A stretch of DNA of 38,819 nt from a virus. Position numbers and translations under genes: made by a program. The stretch spans positions 1 to 38,819 of the IMG/VR virus record IMGVR_UViG_3300032053_000204; one strand, written 5' to 3'. Positions 6,701-33,199 of this stretch are shown piece by piece. Below the pieces are notes generated by a model, which saw nothing but the letters and a program-made list of their open reading frames with translations, made no database searches and had not been told where the DNA came from. Numbering within the stretch: position 1 is the stretch's first letter; every line of letters starts with the position of its first letter.

Positions 6701-7650
6701 TCTTCAATATTCAGAAACTCGGCCTGTGCCTCACCAACTGGCATGTGCTCTCCCTTACACTTAACGTAAACATCACCCTGAACCCCGTAACCATACTCAG
6801 GCTGTGCTTGCTTAAGGCGGGCCTGCAGCTCCCTCATCTGCCGCTCCTTAACCTCCTTTGGGCTCATCTTTATAGTAGGCTCCTTGGTCTTCTTAGTGGT
6901 CAGGTACTCATCCAAGAGCTTATCCAACCTCAGGCTCCTCTCCCTCTGAGTCATAACCGGGACATCTCTAGGGGTCTCGTAAACTGGCTTCTCTTCTTTC
7001 TCCAGGTTAGGATGGGCTGCCGTGGACTCTAGACCCTCCGACCCACCCGCATCATCAGCAAATACTTCCCTATGGGCCGTTTCTAAGTCCGTCCACCCAC
7101 TGTCTCCAATACAGTCCTTGCACATCAGGTATCCCGTCTTAGACGGATACGAATTAAAAGCCGCTATACTTGCATGGCAGTCAGCACATCCACCCATCAT
7201 AGGCAAACCCAATTCTTCGTAGTCGGCCCCGTTTGTTGCCTCCCTTCCAAGAACATGAGACGCCAATTCATAAATAGAAACGGGCTTTACTTGTTCCTCT
7301 GTCTCAGCGGTAGCGGGCGGCAGTTGCTCTGGAGCCTGCGGAGCTTCAACCGCTGGCTCAGGCTTAGGTTTGGCATACGTGCTCAACATCTTTAACGCCT
7401 TCTGCGCCTCCCTAGAATATGCCCTACCATCGAATCCCCACTCCCTAGCGTAGTCCATGAACTGCTGGCCTGTAATCTTCTTCAGGTCCGTAGCGTACAC
7501 CCCACCCATCTCATGCTCCATACCCCAAACCTCAACAATCGGGGTAGACGTATGAAGGTCACTTACAAGAATGCCAGGAAAGGACCCTGTATAAACGAAA
7601 TCCCCTTTCTGGAAACCCAAAGACTTAGCTGAAGCTGCTTCCTTTTTCAT
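3736..7650 (-). CDS. Giant zinc-ribbon array protein with DUF5661-like segment, 1304 aa
   Basis: The ATG at 7650 overlaps the previous stop as ATGA, with AAGGCAAGG upstream; a GTG at 7659 is less likely. About two dozen CxxC-type pairs run from residue 155 to 1250, for example CADC, CSFC, CECG, CRECEC, CKVC, CAWC, CPEC and CPTC. This suggests ten or more zinc ribbons strung along one chain. The N-terminal ~60 residues look like a small beta-barrel. Residues about 1110 to 1170 (GIEVEMEHV, then IAKDHL and YYKLL) match my memory of DUF5661, a family common in phage. Basic-Ala linkers (KKAS, KEAS, KQAD, KKAG) separate modules. It is probably virion-associated; nucleic-acid or protein binding is possible. 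No catalytic site is recognised. Confidence 0.8.
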   Translation of the reverse strand: MKKEAASAKSLGFQKGDFVYTGSFPGILVSDLHTSTPIVEVWGMEHEMGGVYATDLKKITGQQFMDYAREWGFDGRAYSREAQKALKMLSTYAKPKPEPAVEAPQAPEQLPPATAETEEQVKPVSIYELASHVLGREATNGADYEELGLPMMGGCADCHASIAAFNSYPSKTGYLMCKDCIGDSGWTDLETAHREVFADDAGGSEGLESTAAHPNLEKEEKPVYETPRDVPVMTQRERSLRLDKLLDEYLTTKKTKEPTIKMSPKEVKERQMRELQARLKQAQPEYGYGVQGDVYVKCKGEHMPVGEAQAEFLNIEEGMQGEDILTFKCSFCGQPHKSAITVRRGSDRWGSKKQAAHRPMVCECGHKGGGVFSEHSNDMGPGYGPCRECECKEFKGVQKQAEAQYEYFCNGCAVTKGLENSTKAYHVGDCDSCGEPLGNNLAWLGPLPRVGSLKAADTQSQEGRYEKRGSKVVARKEPKFSFGECKVCGDPGDLVDGLCGKCAGITGSKKASEEDMGYDEGDFFAGWTLDEKVEFERRNNMCDKCPHPSSDHDFSKMGNYACQMCAIEGGACAKGYPGYEGGGEKEAASTAQKICAWCGKHMGHIQGEFSDDIPAITHGICQDCFTKVRPKVASTGCPECDSVNMEEIGIREDDPRAPHLLFKCRNCGAKVKVEPEEKEASVKCLKCGGDGYVWFPRKECRGAHAVPSTTEYCGCPRELCPDCLGKGLGKQADRVYVVSAYGGGDVKMNWPNFSMDNHVDDEMVDKFKFILAKVPVDGGGQYWVYAFHIGSEFREEGDSESYYMEKGDPVDAKLMGSYEGEKSDDIEDTWTIKADIKHWAYDLYTELLGLDPVEGALEDEVGIRTLAAFELFNQPTIDSRMVCMAGPLAEKWAADNGAAEGFDWLKIGDKVACWGVADHYEPDQLAESHPDGMWAEVMSDFDRAEARKKMAVVARPYSELLDKKVGEKKNAVLDKTEPDRHVCPCGCYAAGSPTTNMCAHCLMGRPCPNKDKGPETKKQEGKKAGITDGPFAAMGDRQEGGCSYCGEDVLIRAYKEHGAFEGKSYACDKCARQNRLGRPIPGDFYNPENPELGKVAEIPGGKADGQPDDLYSPDELKKGIEVEMEHVEPANDAKAKDDAKDIAKDHLEEQRQKGKGKDEQNYYKLLEKHVDPHKKGSSEITRDDRLGYYEVPEDCACPKCGSPAGEEHRDKRHLSPAMTCPKCRNRWMIPFKNKTAVLVEVDECPTCHRKKGEKHKATMQAPSMEEMEEWMNDGVAEATDGCRVEPDGRCEHGHMSWLLRSGLI

Positions 7651-19912: not shown

Positions 19913-21028
19913 CTATATAGCAAACAGTCTTCCCTTGACTGGCGCTTTATTCCCCAACGACTCTGCTGTTATACCCGCTACATAAGGCATCCCGGCTCCA
20001 GGTATATTGTTGGCCGAAGCTCCGCCACCAATGCCCATCTTAATGACACCCGGCAATTCAGGCTTCCTAATCTTTGACAACCCTAAAGCAAACACACAGG
20101 AAGCAGCTACAGCATCCGAAAGGTCCTTACTACCGCCCTCTGGGTGGTCTACCTTCTTACCCTCAATCAAACTCAACCCTTGAAACTCTGTTATAAAAAC
20201 GGGTTCATAATAATAATCAATCCTTCCAGACAGCATAAGTTCAACCAAAGTATCGTAAGCCTCAGTGGTCCTGTCTACCGAATACTGCTTGACGTTATAC
20301 TTCTTCAGCGTCAGCTCCTGTTGAAATTCCACAGATTGCCAAGAATCTACCGACACCTGACCTATGCAAAATCCCAGGTTGGTAAGCTCATAAACTATCT
20401 GCCTGAACTTTTCAAGCCTGAGTTCCCCACCATCCGGAGGCCTTATGCTCAACATCAGGTCCACTACAACTTTATCCATGTGGTGGTCGTAGTGAGACAT
20501 AGCAACACCAGCCGCGTCCCTGCTCTTCGCCATATCAAAATGGATAAAATATTCAAACCCCTCTCCCCTAAACCAAGGCGCGAACGAGAACTGGTCTGAA
20601 TTTCTCCTATCCTTATACACCACAGGACAAATGCGGCCCTGGTTCACCCTTCTCTCTGCCAACATAGAGTCATGTACCAGGGGCTGAGCTGCTGAAGGAG
20701 GAGCTGAACCATAGTCCCTGGCTGCCTGATAGTACGACTTGGCAAACTCAGAAGCAAAATCATCCTTGGTCAGCTTAGGGTTCATACACCACGTACTTCC
20801 CCTTACCCCCAAAACTGAACCACAACGATAAATTTCAACCGAGTCCATACTATAGTCAGACTGGGTTTGTGACTCTACTTCCAGGTGAGCAGCCCCGTCC
20901 AGTATCGCTGCGTCTTGTTCACCCTGTTCGGCTGCATTGAACATTGGTAATAGCGGAACAGGTAAGGGCTTTACTTCCTCGCCCTTACCTACCGCTCTGC
21001 CGCTGTGATGGTTAAACGACGGACCCAT
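19913..21028 (-). CDS. Terminase large subunit, nuclease half (separate gene), 371 aa
   Basis: Residues 78 to 120 (STWCMNPKLTKDD and ARDYGSAPPS) match the linker found after the ATPase domain in large terminases. The RNase H-fold nuclease follows: FDMAKSRDAAG with D165, VSVDSW with D228, and GGSKDLSDAVAAS with D302 or D305. These are the three catalytic acidic positions of TerL nucleases, which cut concatemeric DNA before and after packaging. No Walker motifs are present. The ATPase half is a different gene (22069 to 23877), and an unrelated gene lies between. The ATG at 21028 overlaps the upstream stop as TAATG, so this is a designed start, not a frameshift remnant. Confidence 0.8.
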   Translation of the reverse strand: MGPSFNHHSGRAVGKGEEVKPLPVPLLPMFNAAEQGEQDAAILDGAAHLEVESQTQSDYSMDSVEIYRCGSVLGVRGSTWCMNPKLTKDDFASEFAKSYYQAARDYGSAPPSAAQPLVHDSMLAERRVNQGRICPVVYKDRRNSDQFSFAPWFRGEGFEYFIHFDMAKSRDAAGVAMSHYDHHMDKVVVDLMLSIRPPDGGELRLEKFRQIVYELTNLGFCIGQVSVDSWQSVEFQQELTLKKYNVKQYSVDRTTEAYDTLVELMLSGRIDYYYEPVFITEFQGLSLIEGKKVDHPEGGSKDLSDAVAASCVFALGLSKIRKPELPGVIKMGIGGGASANNIPGAGMPYVAGITAESLGNKAPVKGRLFAI

Positions 21029-22068: not shown

Positions 22069-23877
22069 CTATTTTTCGTCAGATATAGCCAGCTCCCTCT
22101 TAATATCCTCGATGGTTTCCGGCTGCCCTGCCTTCTGCACCACTTCCTTACGCAGCCCTGTTACGGTCTTGCAGAGATAATCGGTCCTACTCTTTAACGA
22201 GCTTATTGCCAAGAACTTGTAGCTGTCAGAAAAACGGGTCTTCATGGAGCCCTTAAGAACCTGGCAGATATCCTCCCCGTTATCCTTGTTCGCCTTTGAA
22301 ACAAACCACGAAAGCTCATCGGCCACAGCAGCGTAAATAGCATAACCACGCCATACTGTCGAGCCACTGTGACCACTTATGGCCCTTACCCTCTTTGAAG
22401 GAAAGAACATATCGGCATGACCTAAGGCAGTTCTCTTACTGAATTTATCGTTAAAATACCTACTGTTTTCAATAACGGCACAAAGCGTATCGAACACAAC
22501 GCTCTGAGCCTGTACTCCGCTGACCGATACGTTGAGCACAGTCAAAAGCGTATTCTTGCGAAGGCTGTAGTAGCTCCACGGGTCCTTAAGGTTCAGAAGC
22601 CAGTAAATGGCCCTTGCCAGAAATAAGGAACCCATAGCTGACTTGCCTGAATTGTGACCTACTACACCACCATCATGTATATAATTTTCCACCCCAGGCA
22701 CAGAACAATCGTAGTACTCCCCCTCCCCCTCACCCACTACACTTTTAACTCTAACCCAGTAAAAATCGTCCTCCTCAAGCGAAACGGGTTTTTCTTCCCT
22801 TATAGACTTTAAAACTTCCTCACAACCTATAATATTAATACTGTTTGCAAACCTTCTTCTATTAGAGGTACCCACTACCTGCAACACCCATGCAAACCCA
22901 TAAGTCTTATCTCCACACCTAAATTCCCTAGACACTTTCCTATATACCCGGGAAGCAACTCCAAACCGTAATAACAACCTACGGACTCCTTCTACCAACT
23001 CCTTAGACTTACTAACATAACCTATTTGATACTGATAACCCTTAGTGTTTTTCCGTATCCGCTTATCATGATATTTGTACCTACCGCACCAACCGTCCGT
23101 AGAAAACAGCCCTTCTAAAAATTTTGCGACATGAGTATCGGGCAAACTATATATCAAATCTGGCACAGTCTTATTATGTGCCACCCCTTTTCTTATACCT
23201 GGAAAACTACCGTCTCCAATCATGGCTCCCAAAAAGAAAGCCTCATTGGAGGTCATACTCTCTACAGGATTATTAATATACACTCTACGGCTTACAGCCA
23301 CCAACTCCCCCACCTTCAACTCCCCTGCTTTAACCCACCTAGTCTTGCTTCTACCCAGTACTACATGCCCCCAATTCTTGCTTTTACTGTACTCCCTGCC
23401 CAAGAATCTATGTCCTTGGTACACCCTTACTGATAGACCCCCAGCAAGTTCAACTTTAAGAATTTTACCCCTTCCAGAAACTCTGAATCCTGTAGCTGGT
23501 GATATACCACACCTACCTTCATTATACCCTACGGAAACAAAATCATTTTTAACACCCTCTACCCTTCTCCACAAACCGGTATTAGCGTCGTATACCTCAG
23601 AACCGGCTGCAATGCATCCCCTCCCGATAGCAAAATAGCCTTCTCGGTAGGTAGGTTTGTCGAACTCTTCCAGAATGGCCTGAACATTAGGCCAGAGGTC
23701 GCCCTTCCAGTCTGCGAAATCGGGAGAGAATAAAAACTCTCTCATAGGAACCGGCGGCTCCTCATACACCCTTTCAAGAAGGAGCCTGGCCCACTTGGTA
23801 GGAGTTAAGTCGTTCTTTTTCAAAAACGCCTGAACGCCAGGGTCCTGCAACTGCAACCACCAAAGATTGTCGTCCAC
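22069..23877 (-). CDS. Terminase large subunit, ATPase half, with intein
   Basis: The extein parts (residues 1 to 87 and 410 to 602) form a terminase ATPase. Walker A GRG|SGKS is interrupted by the intein. Walker B is YAIYAAVADEL (D520, E521), with a coupling motif FLAISS near 550. Removing the intein leaves about 280 residues, the ATPase domain only; the nuclease is encoded at 19913 to 21028. The ATPase powers DNA translocation into the prohead through the portal. The start is GTG at 23877, with GGAGAGG close upstream and an in-frame stop just before it. The C-terminus ends in a charged tail rather than a linker, so the break lies between the two classic domains. Confidence 0.8.
   Translation of the reverse strand: MDDNLWWLQLQDPGVQAFLKKNDLTPTKWARLLLERVYEEPPVPMREFLFSPDFADWKGDLWPNVQAILEEFDKPTYREGYFAIGRGCIAAGSEVYDANTGLWRRVEGVKNDFVSVGYNEGRCGISPATGFRVSGRGKILKVELAGGLSVRVYQGHRFLGREYSKSKNWGHVVLGRSKTRWVKAGELKVGELVAVSRRVYINNPVESMTSNEAFFLGAMIGDGSFPGIRKGVAHNKTVPDLIYSLPDTHVAKFLEGLFSTDGWCGRYKYHDKRIRKNTKGYQYQIGYVSKSKELVEGVRRLLLRFGVASRVYRKVSREFRCGDKTYGFAWVLQVVGTSNRRRFANSINIIGCEEVLKSIREEKPVSLEEDDFYWVRVKSVVGEGEGEYYDCSVPGVENYIHDGGVVGHNSGKSAMGSLFLARAIYWLLNLKDPWSYYSLRKNTLLTVLNVSVSGVQAQSVVFDTLCAVIENSRYFNDKFSKRTALGHADMFFPSKRVRAISGHSGSTVWRGYAIYAAVADELSWFVSKANKDNGEDICQVLKGSMKTRFSDSYKFLAISSLKSRTDYLCKTVTGLRKEVVQKAGQPETIEDIKRELAISDEK
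22651..23616 (-). mobile_element. LAGLIDADG-type intein in TerL Walker A, 322 aa
   Basis: The intein starts with Cys (CIAAGSEVYD) directly after GRG and ends in VVGHN before Ser, restoring the Walker A GRGSGKS. The N-terminal splicing block and the C-terminal block (ENYIHDGGVVGHN) look intact, with Ser as the +1 nucleophile. Two LAGLIDADG-like motifs, FFLGAMIGDGSF (residues 127 to 138) and FLEGLFSTDGW (166 to 176), lie only about 38 residues apart, much closer than usual. The endonuclease therefore seems shortened and may no longer cut. Insertion in the terminase P-loop is a known intein niche. Confidence 0.85.
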
Positions 23878-25499: not shown

Positions 25500-25505
25500 A
25501 TCTCA

Positions 25506-25582
25506 CCCCTTAAAAACGAGGGGCCTACACCTCAACCCGGCGTGAGTGAATATCACCCACATCATCGGGTTATGAAGTGTAG
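25506..25582 (-). promoter_or_regulatory. Structured dnaX leader with sequestered Shine-Dalgarno
   Basis: A long hairpin pairs 25525-25539 with 25566-25582 (CTACACYTCA...ACCCG on one arm), with an inner 7-bp stem 25542-25548/25554-25560. Directly downstream, 25519-25523 pairs with 25506-25510 (CCCCT/AGGGG). This would bury the AAGGGGTGAG ribosome binding site of dnaX. The arrangement fits translational control such as autoregulation by an RNA-binding protein or an RNA switch. No known riboswitch class is recognised. Confidence 0.55.
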
Positions 25583-25677
25583 ACCACCTCTAAATTTGTG
25601 GAATAATCCCAAGGTCCCCTCTGAACCATACATCCCGGGAGTTCTACAAGCGCAAACAAAAGCGAAGCCATACGACC

Positions 25678-25689
25678 TATATACGAAAT
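25678..25689 (-). promoter_or_regulatory. Putative phage promoter motif ATTTCGTATATA (copy 1)
   Basis: An exact copy of the recurring 12-mer, followed by GG three bases after TATA. It sits upstream of the dnaX leader and just downstream of the metallophosphoesterase gene, pointing towards dnaX. Flanks share CGTTAAAAGCC with the copy at 30227. No classical -35 box is obvious. Confidence 0.6.
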
Positions 25690-25724
25690 GGCTTTTAACG
25701 GCCTGTGGTATGCGTGTGGCAGGA

Positions 25725-31213: not shown

Positions 31214-32077
31214 CTAGACAGCTGCAACAAAAAGTTTTCTAGTCCTCTCCGCCTCGATGCCCGCCTGCTCCACGAAACCAGGCCAAGCGCTCCCCTCTTT
31301 CAAGAAGCTGTTAAACTCATAGTCTTCAAAAAATGCCTTAGCGCCAACCCAGTCAACAGCAGGCCACGTCCAATTCAGCTCAGGGAGAAGATTCACACGT
31401 AGGCTTAAAGCATCTATAGCAACCTTGAACGATTCAGCCCTCTCACCAAATTTCACAAGTGCCTCTTCTATGCTCCCCACTTCTTCCTTAATCATTTTCA
31501 AGGCCGTCTTTTCTCCAACGCCACCAATCCCCTTGATGTTGTCAGAAGGGTCACCAGTCAAGGCCCACATAACGGGCAACCACGCTGGCTCTACCCCATA
31601 TTTACTTACAACCCAGGAAACATCGGCGGTTTCTTTCGACTTAGGGAAGTAACAATTTACGGTCTTATTAACGGTCTGAAGTAGGTCGTGGTCCCCGGTT
31701 ATAATCCGGACCTCCTGCCCTTGTTCCGTAGCCCAAACTGCCAAGGTACCCAAAACATCATCTGCTTCCCACCCAGGATGAATTACTTGAATCACACCAA
31801 TCATAGGCAGCACCTTCTTCAAATCTGACACTTCTCTATAAAACGCCTCTGCTCTTGGGTTCCTGGTGGACTTATATGTAGCTATAAGATTACGACGAGC
31901 TACAGGAGAACCGTCCCAAACCACTATCGGGACCACACCAAATAACTTCTTGTACATACCCAACGCTCTTAAAAATCCAAAAACCATACCTGACTTCTTG
32001 CCTGACTTGGTAGCCAGATTACCCATGGCCGCGTCGAACCTGTGCACTTCTCCCATCGCGTCTACTAGAACAACCAT
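31214..32077 (-). CDS. 5'-3' exonuclease (FEN/Pol I N-terminal family), 287 aa
   Basis: Motifs: LVDAMGEVHR near the start, VVWDGSPVARRN, then WEADDVLGTLA, ITGDHDLLQ and LTGDPSDNIKGIGGVGEKTA. The last is the helix-3-turn-helix of flap endonucleases and the 5' nuclease domain of Pol I. The acidic residues bind two metals. It removes RNA primers and 5' flaps during phage replication. The ATG at 32077 has AGGAGG with 4-nt spacing. The preceding ~480 nt lack genes and are highly structured, so this mRNA may carry a very long leader. Confidence 0.9.
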   Translation of the reverse strand: MVVLVDAMGEVHRFDAAMGNLATKSGKKSGMVFGFLRALGMYKKLFGVVPIVVWDGSPVARRNLIATYKSTRNPRAEAFYREVSDLKKVLPMIGVIQVIHPGWEADDVLGTLAVWATEQGQEVRIITGDHDLLQTVNKTVNCYFPKSKETADVSWVVSKYGVEPAWLPVMWALTGDPSDNIKGIGGVGEKTALKMIKEEVGSIEEALVKFGERAESFKVAIDALSLRVNLLPELNWTWPAVDWVGAKAFFEDYEFNSFLKEGSAWPGFVEQAGIEAERTRKLFVAAV

Positions 32078-32089
32078 ATAACCTCCTAA

Positions 32090-32563
32090 ATCTTTGGGGA
32101 CCTACGGCGGCCTCAGTTCTCCCCCACGGACGCTTGCGACTTACCCCGTCCATCCGTACCCTTTATTTGCTGGCACTTACCAGTAGCCTGGGCCAGGCAT
32201 CAGTGTCTTTAAATCGGTAGTGAGGGAGGATTAATGATTACCTCCAAGAGCCTCCACAGTCGCAGATTCAGTCAGCAGCTCGGTGTAGGCCATGACCCCA
32301 CTCCGTACTAACGCTACCGGGGACTTTACCCCGACCACCCCGCAGGACTCATCTATGTAATTAGATGGGCTTAGAGTGGACGCCCAGAACAGGTTTCTCT
32401 GTTCCCATACGTACCTTCTGCTTCTGCTTCACCTCAGCCAGTTTTCAGGGCTAACTCCGCCACCTTGATAGCGGTCCCTTACTTACTGCACCTTAGGCCG
32501 TCCAGGCCTTTTTCGGTCACTCACTAAAAGGAATCAGTAGTTTCCTACCTCATCCTCCAAACC
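32090..32563 (-). ncRNA. Candidate structured non-coding RNA or long leader (about 480 nt)
   Basis: No credible reading frame lies in this stretch on either strand. By eye I find about 12 hairpins, each 4 to 6 bp with short loops. Examples (plus coordinates): 32387-32392/32399-32404 (GAACAG/CTGTTC), 32350-32355/32362-32367, 32318-32322/32329-32333, 32186-32190/32194-32198, 32128-32132/32147-32151 and 32225-32229/32241-32245. A promoter motif lies directly upstream (32566-32577). No core of tmRNA, RNase P, group I or group II intron was recognised. It could be an independent phage RNA in the spirit of GOLLD or ROOL, a leader of the exonuclease gene, or an origin. Confidence 0.6.
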
Positions 32564-32565
32564 TA

Positions 32566-32577
32566 TATATACGAAAT
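32566..32577 (-). promoter_or_regulatory. Putative phage promoter motif ATTTCGTATATA (copy 4)
   Basis: An exact 12-mer, followed by TAGG, in the gap just after the upstream gene's stop and directly before the structured region. If the GG after TATA is the start site, the RNA begins at about 32563. Confidence 0.65.
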
Positions 32578-32590
32578 GCACCTAAACGAA

Positions 32591-33199
32591 TTAACGAATG
32601 TACATCTGGTTACGGCTAGATGATGTCTTGAGCTGGGGCTTCCCGAAGGCTATCTCGACACCAAAAAACATAGAAGCGGTGTTAATAACCACTTTAGATT
32701 TCTCGGTATAGTTGAAGTCGTGCCCTGCCAGAACTCCCACGCTAGATGCATTTGCTATCTTCTCTAGAAGCGGCATCTTGTCCAGGTTGTTAAAAGACAC
32801 CTTATTTAAAACCCAACAAACCACCGGTCTAGTAACATCATTCAACCTTACTCCTTGGACTAATGAGGCCTGACTTGGTGCCCTTGCGCTATTTATCCAA
32901 GAAGCAGAAACCCCAGTATACACATACGAGCCTAGATGGAAAAAGGGTACTGCTGAACCTGCCGACCATATGCCTCTTTTCCAATCTACGGCAGAATAAG
33001 GGATAGTGCTGTCAACTTTAAACCCCGTATTCTTCCTTAAGTCCAACCACACATATCCCCCGAAGTCCCTAACCTTATCTACCTGACCCTGAATCAAACC
33101 AGGGGTAACGGGTTGGAATGTCCCTGAATCTACCGAAACCTCTTGAGCCTGTGCAACGCCAACCAACGACAACAGCGCCACGACCAGTAACATCTTCAT
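32591..33199 (-). CDS. Exported protein with Sec signal, possibly small beta-barrel, 202 aa
   Basis: The N-terminus MKMLLVVALLSLVGVAQAQ is a textbook signal peptide with AQA cleavage. The mature part alternates polar and aromatic residues in strand-like stretches (GGYVWLDLRKNTGFKV, GSYVYTGVSASWI, SVGVLAGHDFNY, MFFGVEIAFGKP), compatible with a small outer-membrane or periplasmic beta-protein. Such phage genes sometimes block superinfection or alter the host surface; that is an inference. The ATG at 33199 overlaps the upstream stop as ATGA. The structured RNA region starts just downstream. Confidence 0.7.
   Translation of the reverse strand: MKMLLVVALLSLVGVAQAQEVSVDSGTFQPVTPGLIQGQVDKVRDFGGYVWLDLRKNTGFKVDSTIPYSAVDWKRGIWSAGSAVPFFHLGSYVYTGVSASWINSARAPSQASLVQGVRLNDVTRPVVCWVLNKVSFNNLDKMPLLEKIANASSVGVLAGHDFNYTEKSKVVINTASMFFGVEIAFGKPQLKTSSSRNQMYIR

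Follow-up and report, generated by a model that had tools for sequence, protein, structure and literature searches.

The gap at 32078-32590 of the 38,819-nt stretch of viral DNA analyzed here (the window) encodes, in the reading to which we assign a probability of roughly 0.55, a stand-alone, trans-acting structured noncoding RNA of about 310 to 350 nt that is a divergent member of the manA superfamily. The 513-nt gap separates two minus-strand ORFs at 31214-32077 and 32591-33199 and holds no gene on either strand, in agreement with the earlier note that drew attention to it. No ORF starting within 32078-32590 exceeds 44 aa, and the idea of a hidden ORF was dropped for this reason. It is also the sole long gene-free stretch, as had been claimed, the next-largest gap seen being 225 nt (25500-25724). 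No tRNA or tmRNA was detected in 32078-32590 by ARAGORN or the Rfam models, no Rfam family matched there at gathering thresholds, and, as the earlier note had said, there was no model match to an intron, RNase P, or tmRNA. The parts of the locus, in the order of the minus strand, are as follows.

32562-32589, minus strand: phage promoter motif (TCGTTTAGGTGCATTTCGTATATATAGG); TTTCGTATATA has 5 copies in the window, all minus strand and upstream of genes
32529-32556, minus strand: 5' hairpin GUAG-GAAA-CUAC within an outer stem, preceding the core (minimum free energy [MFE] fold)
32520-32526, minus strand: 5' strand of P1, UAGUGAG, forming 7/7 pairs with 32218-32224; P1 covaries across members
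32509-32519, minus strand: core strand UGACCGAAAAA, in near-invariant alignment columns; its AC pairs with the GU of UAAGGU
32496-32508, minus strand: P2 hairpin GGCC-UGGAC-GGCC (MFE fold; P2 covaries)
32489-32495, minus strand: core strand UAAGGUG; the core pattern is unique in the window and has 0 occurrences in shuffles
32246-32488, minus strand: large, phage-specific middle domain with several predicted hairpins (MFE fold)
32225-32245, minus strand: 5-bp P3 hairpin GGAGG-UAAUCAUUAAU-CCUCC, abutting P1 (MFE fold; P3 covaries)
32218-32224, minus strand: 3' strand of P1, CUCACUA, immediately after P3 (pairs 7/7; MFE fold)
32078-32217, minus strand: tail from the RNA to the exonuclease start codon, with the ribosome-binding site AGGAGG and without folding support
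31214-32077, minus strand: downstream 5'-3' exonuclease gene, 287 aa (PF02739, E 2e-28; PF01367, E 4e-12; phrog_107)

A minus-strand structured phage RNA behind its own promoter motif had been proposed from the letters alone, and our results bear this out. The exact copy of the motif directly upstream of the RNA is real, with TTTCGTATATA located at 32566, 30227, 25678, 36086, and 27594 in the window. Since each of these five minus-strand copies precedes a gene, a promoter role is fairly assigned to them; a weaker copy lies at 7590. The full 25-nt sequence upstream of the RNA occurs once in the window, and transcription would start a few nucleotides downstream of 32562-32589. The second-largest gap, 25500-25724 (minus strand), is the leader of the clamp-loader gene behind the same motif (25678-25701); it contains a long hairpin, has a fold z of -3.7, and is possibly another structured RNA. 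Elsewhere in the window, the ORF at 22069-23877 (minus strand) carries LAGLIDADG and intein-splicing domains. It matches the same terminase large-subunit PHROG as the ORF at 19913-21028 (minus strand), with an unmatched 326-aa ORF between them, and the pair may represent an intein-bearing or split terminase.

A permissive Rfam search returned manA (RF01745) at 32545-32215 on the minus strand over the full model range, with 31 bits and an E value of 4.1e-6 (5.3e-6 when a wider stretch was searched), which does not reach the family's gathering cut-off of 55.2 bits. Matches to snoTBR5 and PART1_3 from the permissive search were judged to be chance. The manA match is carried by the two conserved manA halves, GUGAG-UGAC-CGAAAAA-GGCC..GGCC-UAAGGUG and GGAGG-UAAUCAUUAAU-CCUCC-CUCAC. 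The RNA thus contains the manA core letters UGAC-N-GAANAA ... UAAGGUG and the P3 loop, and the strands of the closing helix/pseudoknot pair across it. These strands read GUGAG/CUCAC here versus GGGAG/CUCCC in the manA consensus, a compensated change, and the helix extends to 7 pairs (UAGUGAG/CUCACUA). The manA middle domain is missing, with the middle of the model skipped in the alignment and 244 nt of unrelated sequence in the window RNA. The features by which we define the wider manA-type superfamily are all present, namely P1, P2 with its AC/GU extension, P3 abutting P1, and the invariant letters. Because the core is common to both but the score threshold and middle domain are missed, we file the RNA as a divergent variant and not as plain manA. 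This sub-threshold but significant match places the RNA, divergent and enlarged, in a phage RNA superfamily whose described branch is Rfam manA. Two statements of the earlier note are revised accordingly: the RNA that it could match to no known family is a divergent manA RNA below the curated cut-off, and its length is not ~480 nt but about 310 to 350 nt (32208-32556).

Folding statistics locate the structure within the gap. The count of about 12 hairpins made earlier is a fair one for the predicted fold, but the description "densely folded" does not stand, as the whole gap 32078-32590 folds no better than dinucleotide shuffles (z of -0.63 on the minus strand and -0.38 on the plus strand); hairpin number alone is therefore no evidence. 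The 309-nt domain at 32218-32526 (minus strand) folds at a z of -2.44, the middle domain (32246-32488) at -1.9, and the 134 nt preceding the exonuclease gene, without folding support, at +0.7. The unconstrained MFE structure of 32208-32556 is the one predicted from relatives. It includes the 5' hairpin as well as P1, P2 with its AC/GU pairs, and P3, and constraining these elements changes nothing (-125.2 kcal/mol both ways).

The window contains a single match to the 5' core pattern, and none of 100 shuffles contains one. In viral contigs the pattern retrieved classical marine manA RNAs, two of them confirmed by Rfam, and altered spacing or flanks retrieved many more viral RNAs, most of which fall below Rfam's cut-off. 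A P3-only pattern brought in a further branch with a P3 identical to that of the window RNA; L200, L201, and L209 have this identical P3. As a negative control, the core-pattern scan of 84,980 bacterial and archaeal genomes gave 19 matches, all of which read as protein-coding on inspection. P1, P2, and P3 were found together in 26 of 58 viral matches versus 1 of 19 controls. When the downstream sequence was shuffled, 85 of 1160 trials still gave P1 with P3; for the window copy, an equally good score arose in 8 of 2000 shuffled trials. These figures are from a strict scan, adopted because a more permissive one for P1/P3, in which G-U pairs were free, could not tell real matches from chance ones.

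BLAST of the window RNA against 50,697 phage records gave chance matches only, its middle domain yielded no homologue, and a search for close relatives of the window phage produced two weak hits with the exonuclease and none with the clamp loader. When the relatives' RNAs were compared with phages by BLAST, a 735-kb phage provided a partner for L133 and for no other, in addition to manA's cyanophage set; the single hit of L209 (E 0.3) was weak and judged to be chance, and a plasmid search with the L138 RNA found none. The partner of L133 (60-kb contig) is L199 (LR756501.1, at about 608.1 kb), with which it has a 78%-identical RNA stretch covering part of the middle domain, so that the two form a sub-branch with a conserved middle domain. 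In L201 (minus strand), the core word UGACUGAAUAA recurs inside the middle domain, about 200 nt past the core.

For covariation analysis, 30 members, with membership resting on core sequence plus covariation, were reduced by script to their core columns. These members range from cyanophages to the 735-kb phage, with RNAs of 117 to 307 nt, and the window RNA has the longest domain from UAAGGUG to P3, at 244 nt versus about 100 in manA. Among alignment cells, 92.9% were paired, compared with 65.9% after shuffling and at most 55% when slid; both-sided changes were seen in 16 of the 17 core pairs, and the covariation score was 0.752 versus 0.226. The A-U pair at UGAC/GGU is never broken and is G-C in four of the 30 members, in which the AC/GU extension reads GC/GC. 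The P3 pairing is partly selected, since P3 was chosen by being a hairpin, and the P2 positions come from a register search, in which they stayed unshifted in 26/30. Four members (L133, L166, L185, and L187) are included in the count even though no clear partner for P1 lies where it would be expected. Compensatory changes in homologues, the absence of which the earlier note would have held against an RNA, are therefore present in the core, to which the columns are confined. The core structure, consisting of P1, P2 with its AC/GU extension, and P3 stacked on P1, is conserved across unrelated phages.

The neighborhoods of the relatives bear on what such an RNA may do. In 39 cyanophage and marine-virus records, the RNA occupies a single place per record, and its neighbors vary: in P-SSM2 it lies between regA (before) and purL (after); it follows pstS in P-SSM4, a ferredoxin gene in P-SSM7, and the major capsid gene in P-HM1, P-RSM4, MED4-213, and S-SSM5; and in P-TIM68 and P-RSM6 it is close to talC. 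Six contigs have a 97-100% identical RNA and common upstream sequence, followed by three different downstream sequences, and in L124, L132, L187, and L198 the next predicted gene is convergent. Upstream sigma-70 promoters scoring 11-12/12 were found in 9 of 33 relatives (0.5 expected). In 8 of 32 relatives (0.7-1.3 expected), the 110 nt upstream contain TCTTTRA, the core of the boxA element found in rRNA leaders, although some of the phages that carry it may be related. Intrinsic terminators follow the RNA in several relatives, and several have tRNA genes on the analyzed stretch. Among the named cyanophages (L213-L221), P-HM1, P-SSM4, and S-SSM5 have hypothetical genes annotated across the manA RNA, and these are probably mis-annotations.

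It is this context of single copies, varied neighbors, and own promoters that leads us to favor a stand-alone, trans-acting RNA over a riboswitch. The RNA would head the transcript made from the phage promoter at 32562-32589 and, to judge solely from the context of its relatives, may act in trans as a stable RNA. Its universal core could engage a conserved part of the host gene-expression machinery, with the variable middle domain as the phage-specific part. In the window phage the same transcript could continue into the exonuclease gene, in which case processing would free the RNA or it would act while still attached. Against this reading stand the score below Rfam's cut-off, a middle domain without homologue or covariation, and the window copy itself, which has no boxA, is followed by no terminator that we could find, and leads straight into the gene. 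An anti-Shine-Dalgarno role for the CCUCC of P3 was dropped because the P3 sequence varies freely.

The position of the window RNA between the promoter motif and the exonuclease ribosome-binding site is what a cis-acting leader or riboswitch, sensing a metabolite or protein and controlling the exonuclease gene, would also occupy, and manA itself was proposed to be cis-regulatory with most copies in potential 5' untranslated regions (PMC2864571). A long leader of the exonuclease gene, already offered as an alternative in the earlier note, is possible for the window copy; as an account of the RNA we consider regulation in cis unlikely, since the gene downstream differs among relatives and is convergent in some, and RNAs that are nearly identical are followed by unrelated sequence. 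Location at the start of the transcript, together with the boxA-like elements and tRNA clusters near relatives, could instead point to promoter-proximal antitermination, in which the nascent RNA modifies RNA polymerase to read through terminators in the operon. The put RNA of phage HK022 and the EAR element are nascent RNAs that make RNA polymerase do so. Several relatives, however, are directly followed by a convergent gene or by a terminator, and readthrough at such sites would serve nothing; we regard this explanation as somewhat less probable still than a leader. Least probable by far is that the gap has no RNA function and is a DNA element (replication origin or packaging site) or spacer with a chance manA match. 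The gap does adjoin DNA-replication genes, and whole-gap folding is not above chance, but manA scores an E of 4e-6 against all of Rfam, P1 is compensated on the same strand as the core, and the compensatory core changes largely contradict this explanation. Nor did the replication origin suggested earlier find support, as the skew shows no switch across the window and no iteron-like repeats are listed at the site.

Beyond the window, we tentatively suggest, at somewhat less than even odds, that manA is not a marine riboswitch but the visible part of a widespread superfamily of phage RNAs, each single-copy and stand-alone, that act in trans on a universal host machine such as the ribosome or RNA polymerase. 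Such a superfamily would combine a universal core and an interchangeable middle with own promoters and, sometimes, rRNA-type boxA and tRNA-gene neighbors. manA has been a candidate riboswitch since 2010, known almost only from marine sequence, and we found no description of the wider manA-type set in the openly licensed literature. The conserved core, its covariation across unrelated phages, and the inconstant neighbors argue for a structured RNA that is common among phages at large and that standard annotation misses, because many relatives score under Rfam's cut-off and several named cyanophages have hypothetical genes annotated over it. Since cultured phage-host pairs carry it (Prochlorococcus phages P-SSM2, P-SSM4, P-HM1, and others), its function is directly testable.

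The closest known system is manA (RF01745; Weinberg 2010, PMC2864571), also phage-borne, which has in common with the window RNA a hairpin at the same 5' place, the closing helix, UGAC-N-GAANAA, P2, UAAGGUG, and a P3 that carries a UANNCANNAAU-type loop and stacks on the closing helix; the P3 loop of the window RNA resembles the manA loop UAUACAGUAAU. The window RNA differs in lacking manA's conserved GGUGGUGCUGC middle and in its P1 of 7 bp rather than 5, and the window phage is not a recognized cyanophage. In the literature manA is a candidate for regulation in cis to which no ligand has been assigned (PMC2864571, PMC9964418), and its weak cloverleaf likeness and adjacency to tRNAs have been remarked upon (PMC3692125). 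The core outline here recalls tRNA or tmRNA in its closing stem, 2-nt UG linker, arm, large insert, and 5-bp arm, which here abuts the closing stem, but P1 length is not fixed; strict tRNA mimicry was dropped on this point and because a CCA end is not constant. The Bifidobacterium megaplasmid pMP7017 has a 178-bp manA RNA, a transcribed tmRNA, and a tRNA region (PMC10832533), and this motif, likened here by description, is on a plasmid and not a phage. GOLLD and ROOL (PMC12286853) are likewise large structured phage RNAs, often near tRNA islands; at about 660-800 nt or more they are twice the size of the window RNA, and the inability of the earlier note to match them agrees with the Rfam models, which gave no match to either over 32000-32700 at gathering thresholds or up to an E of 10.
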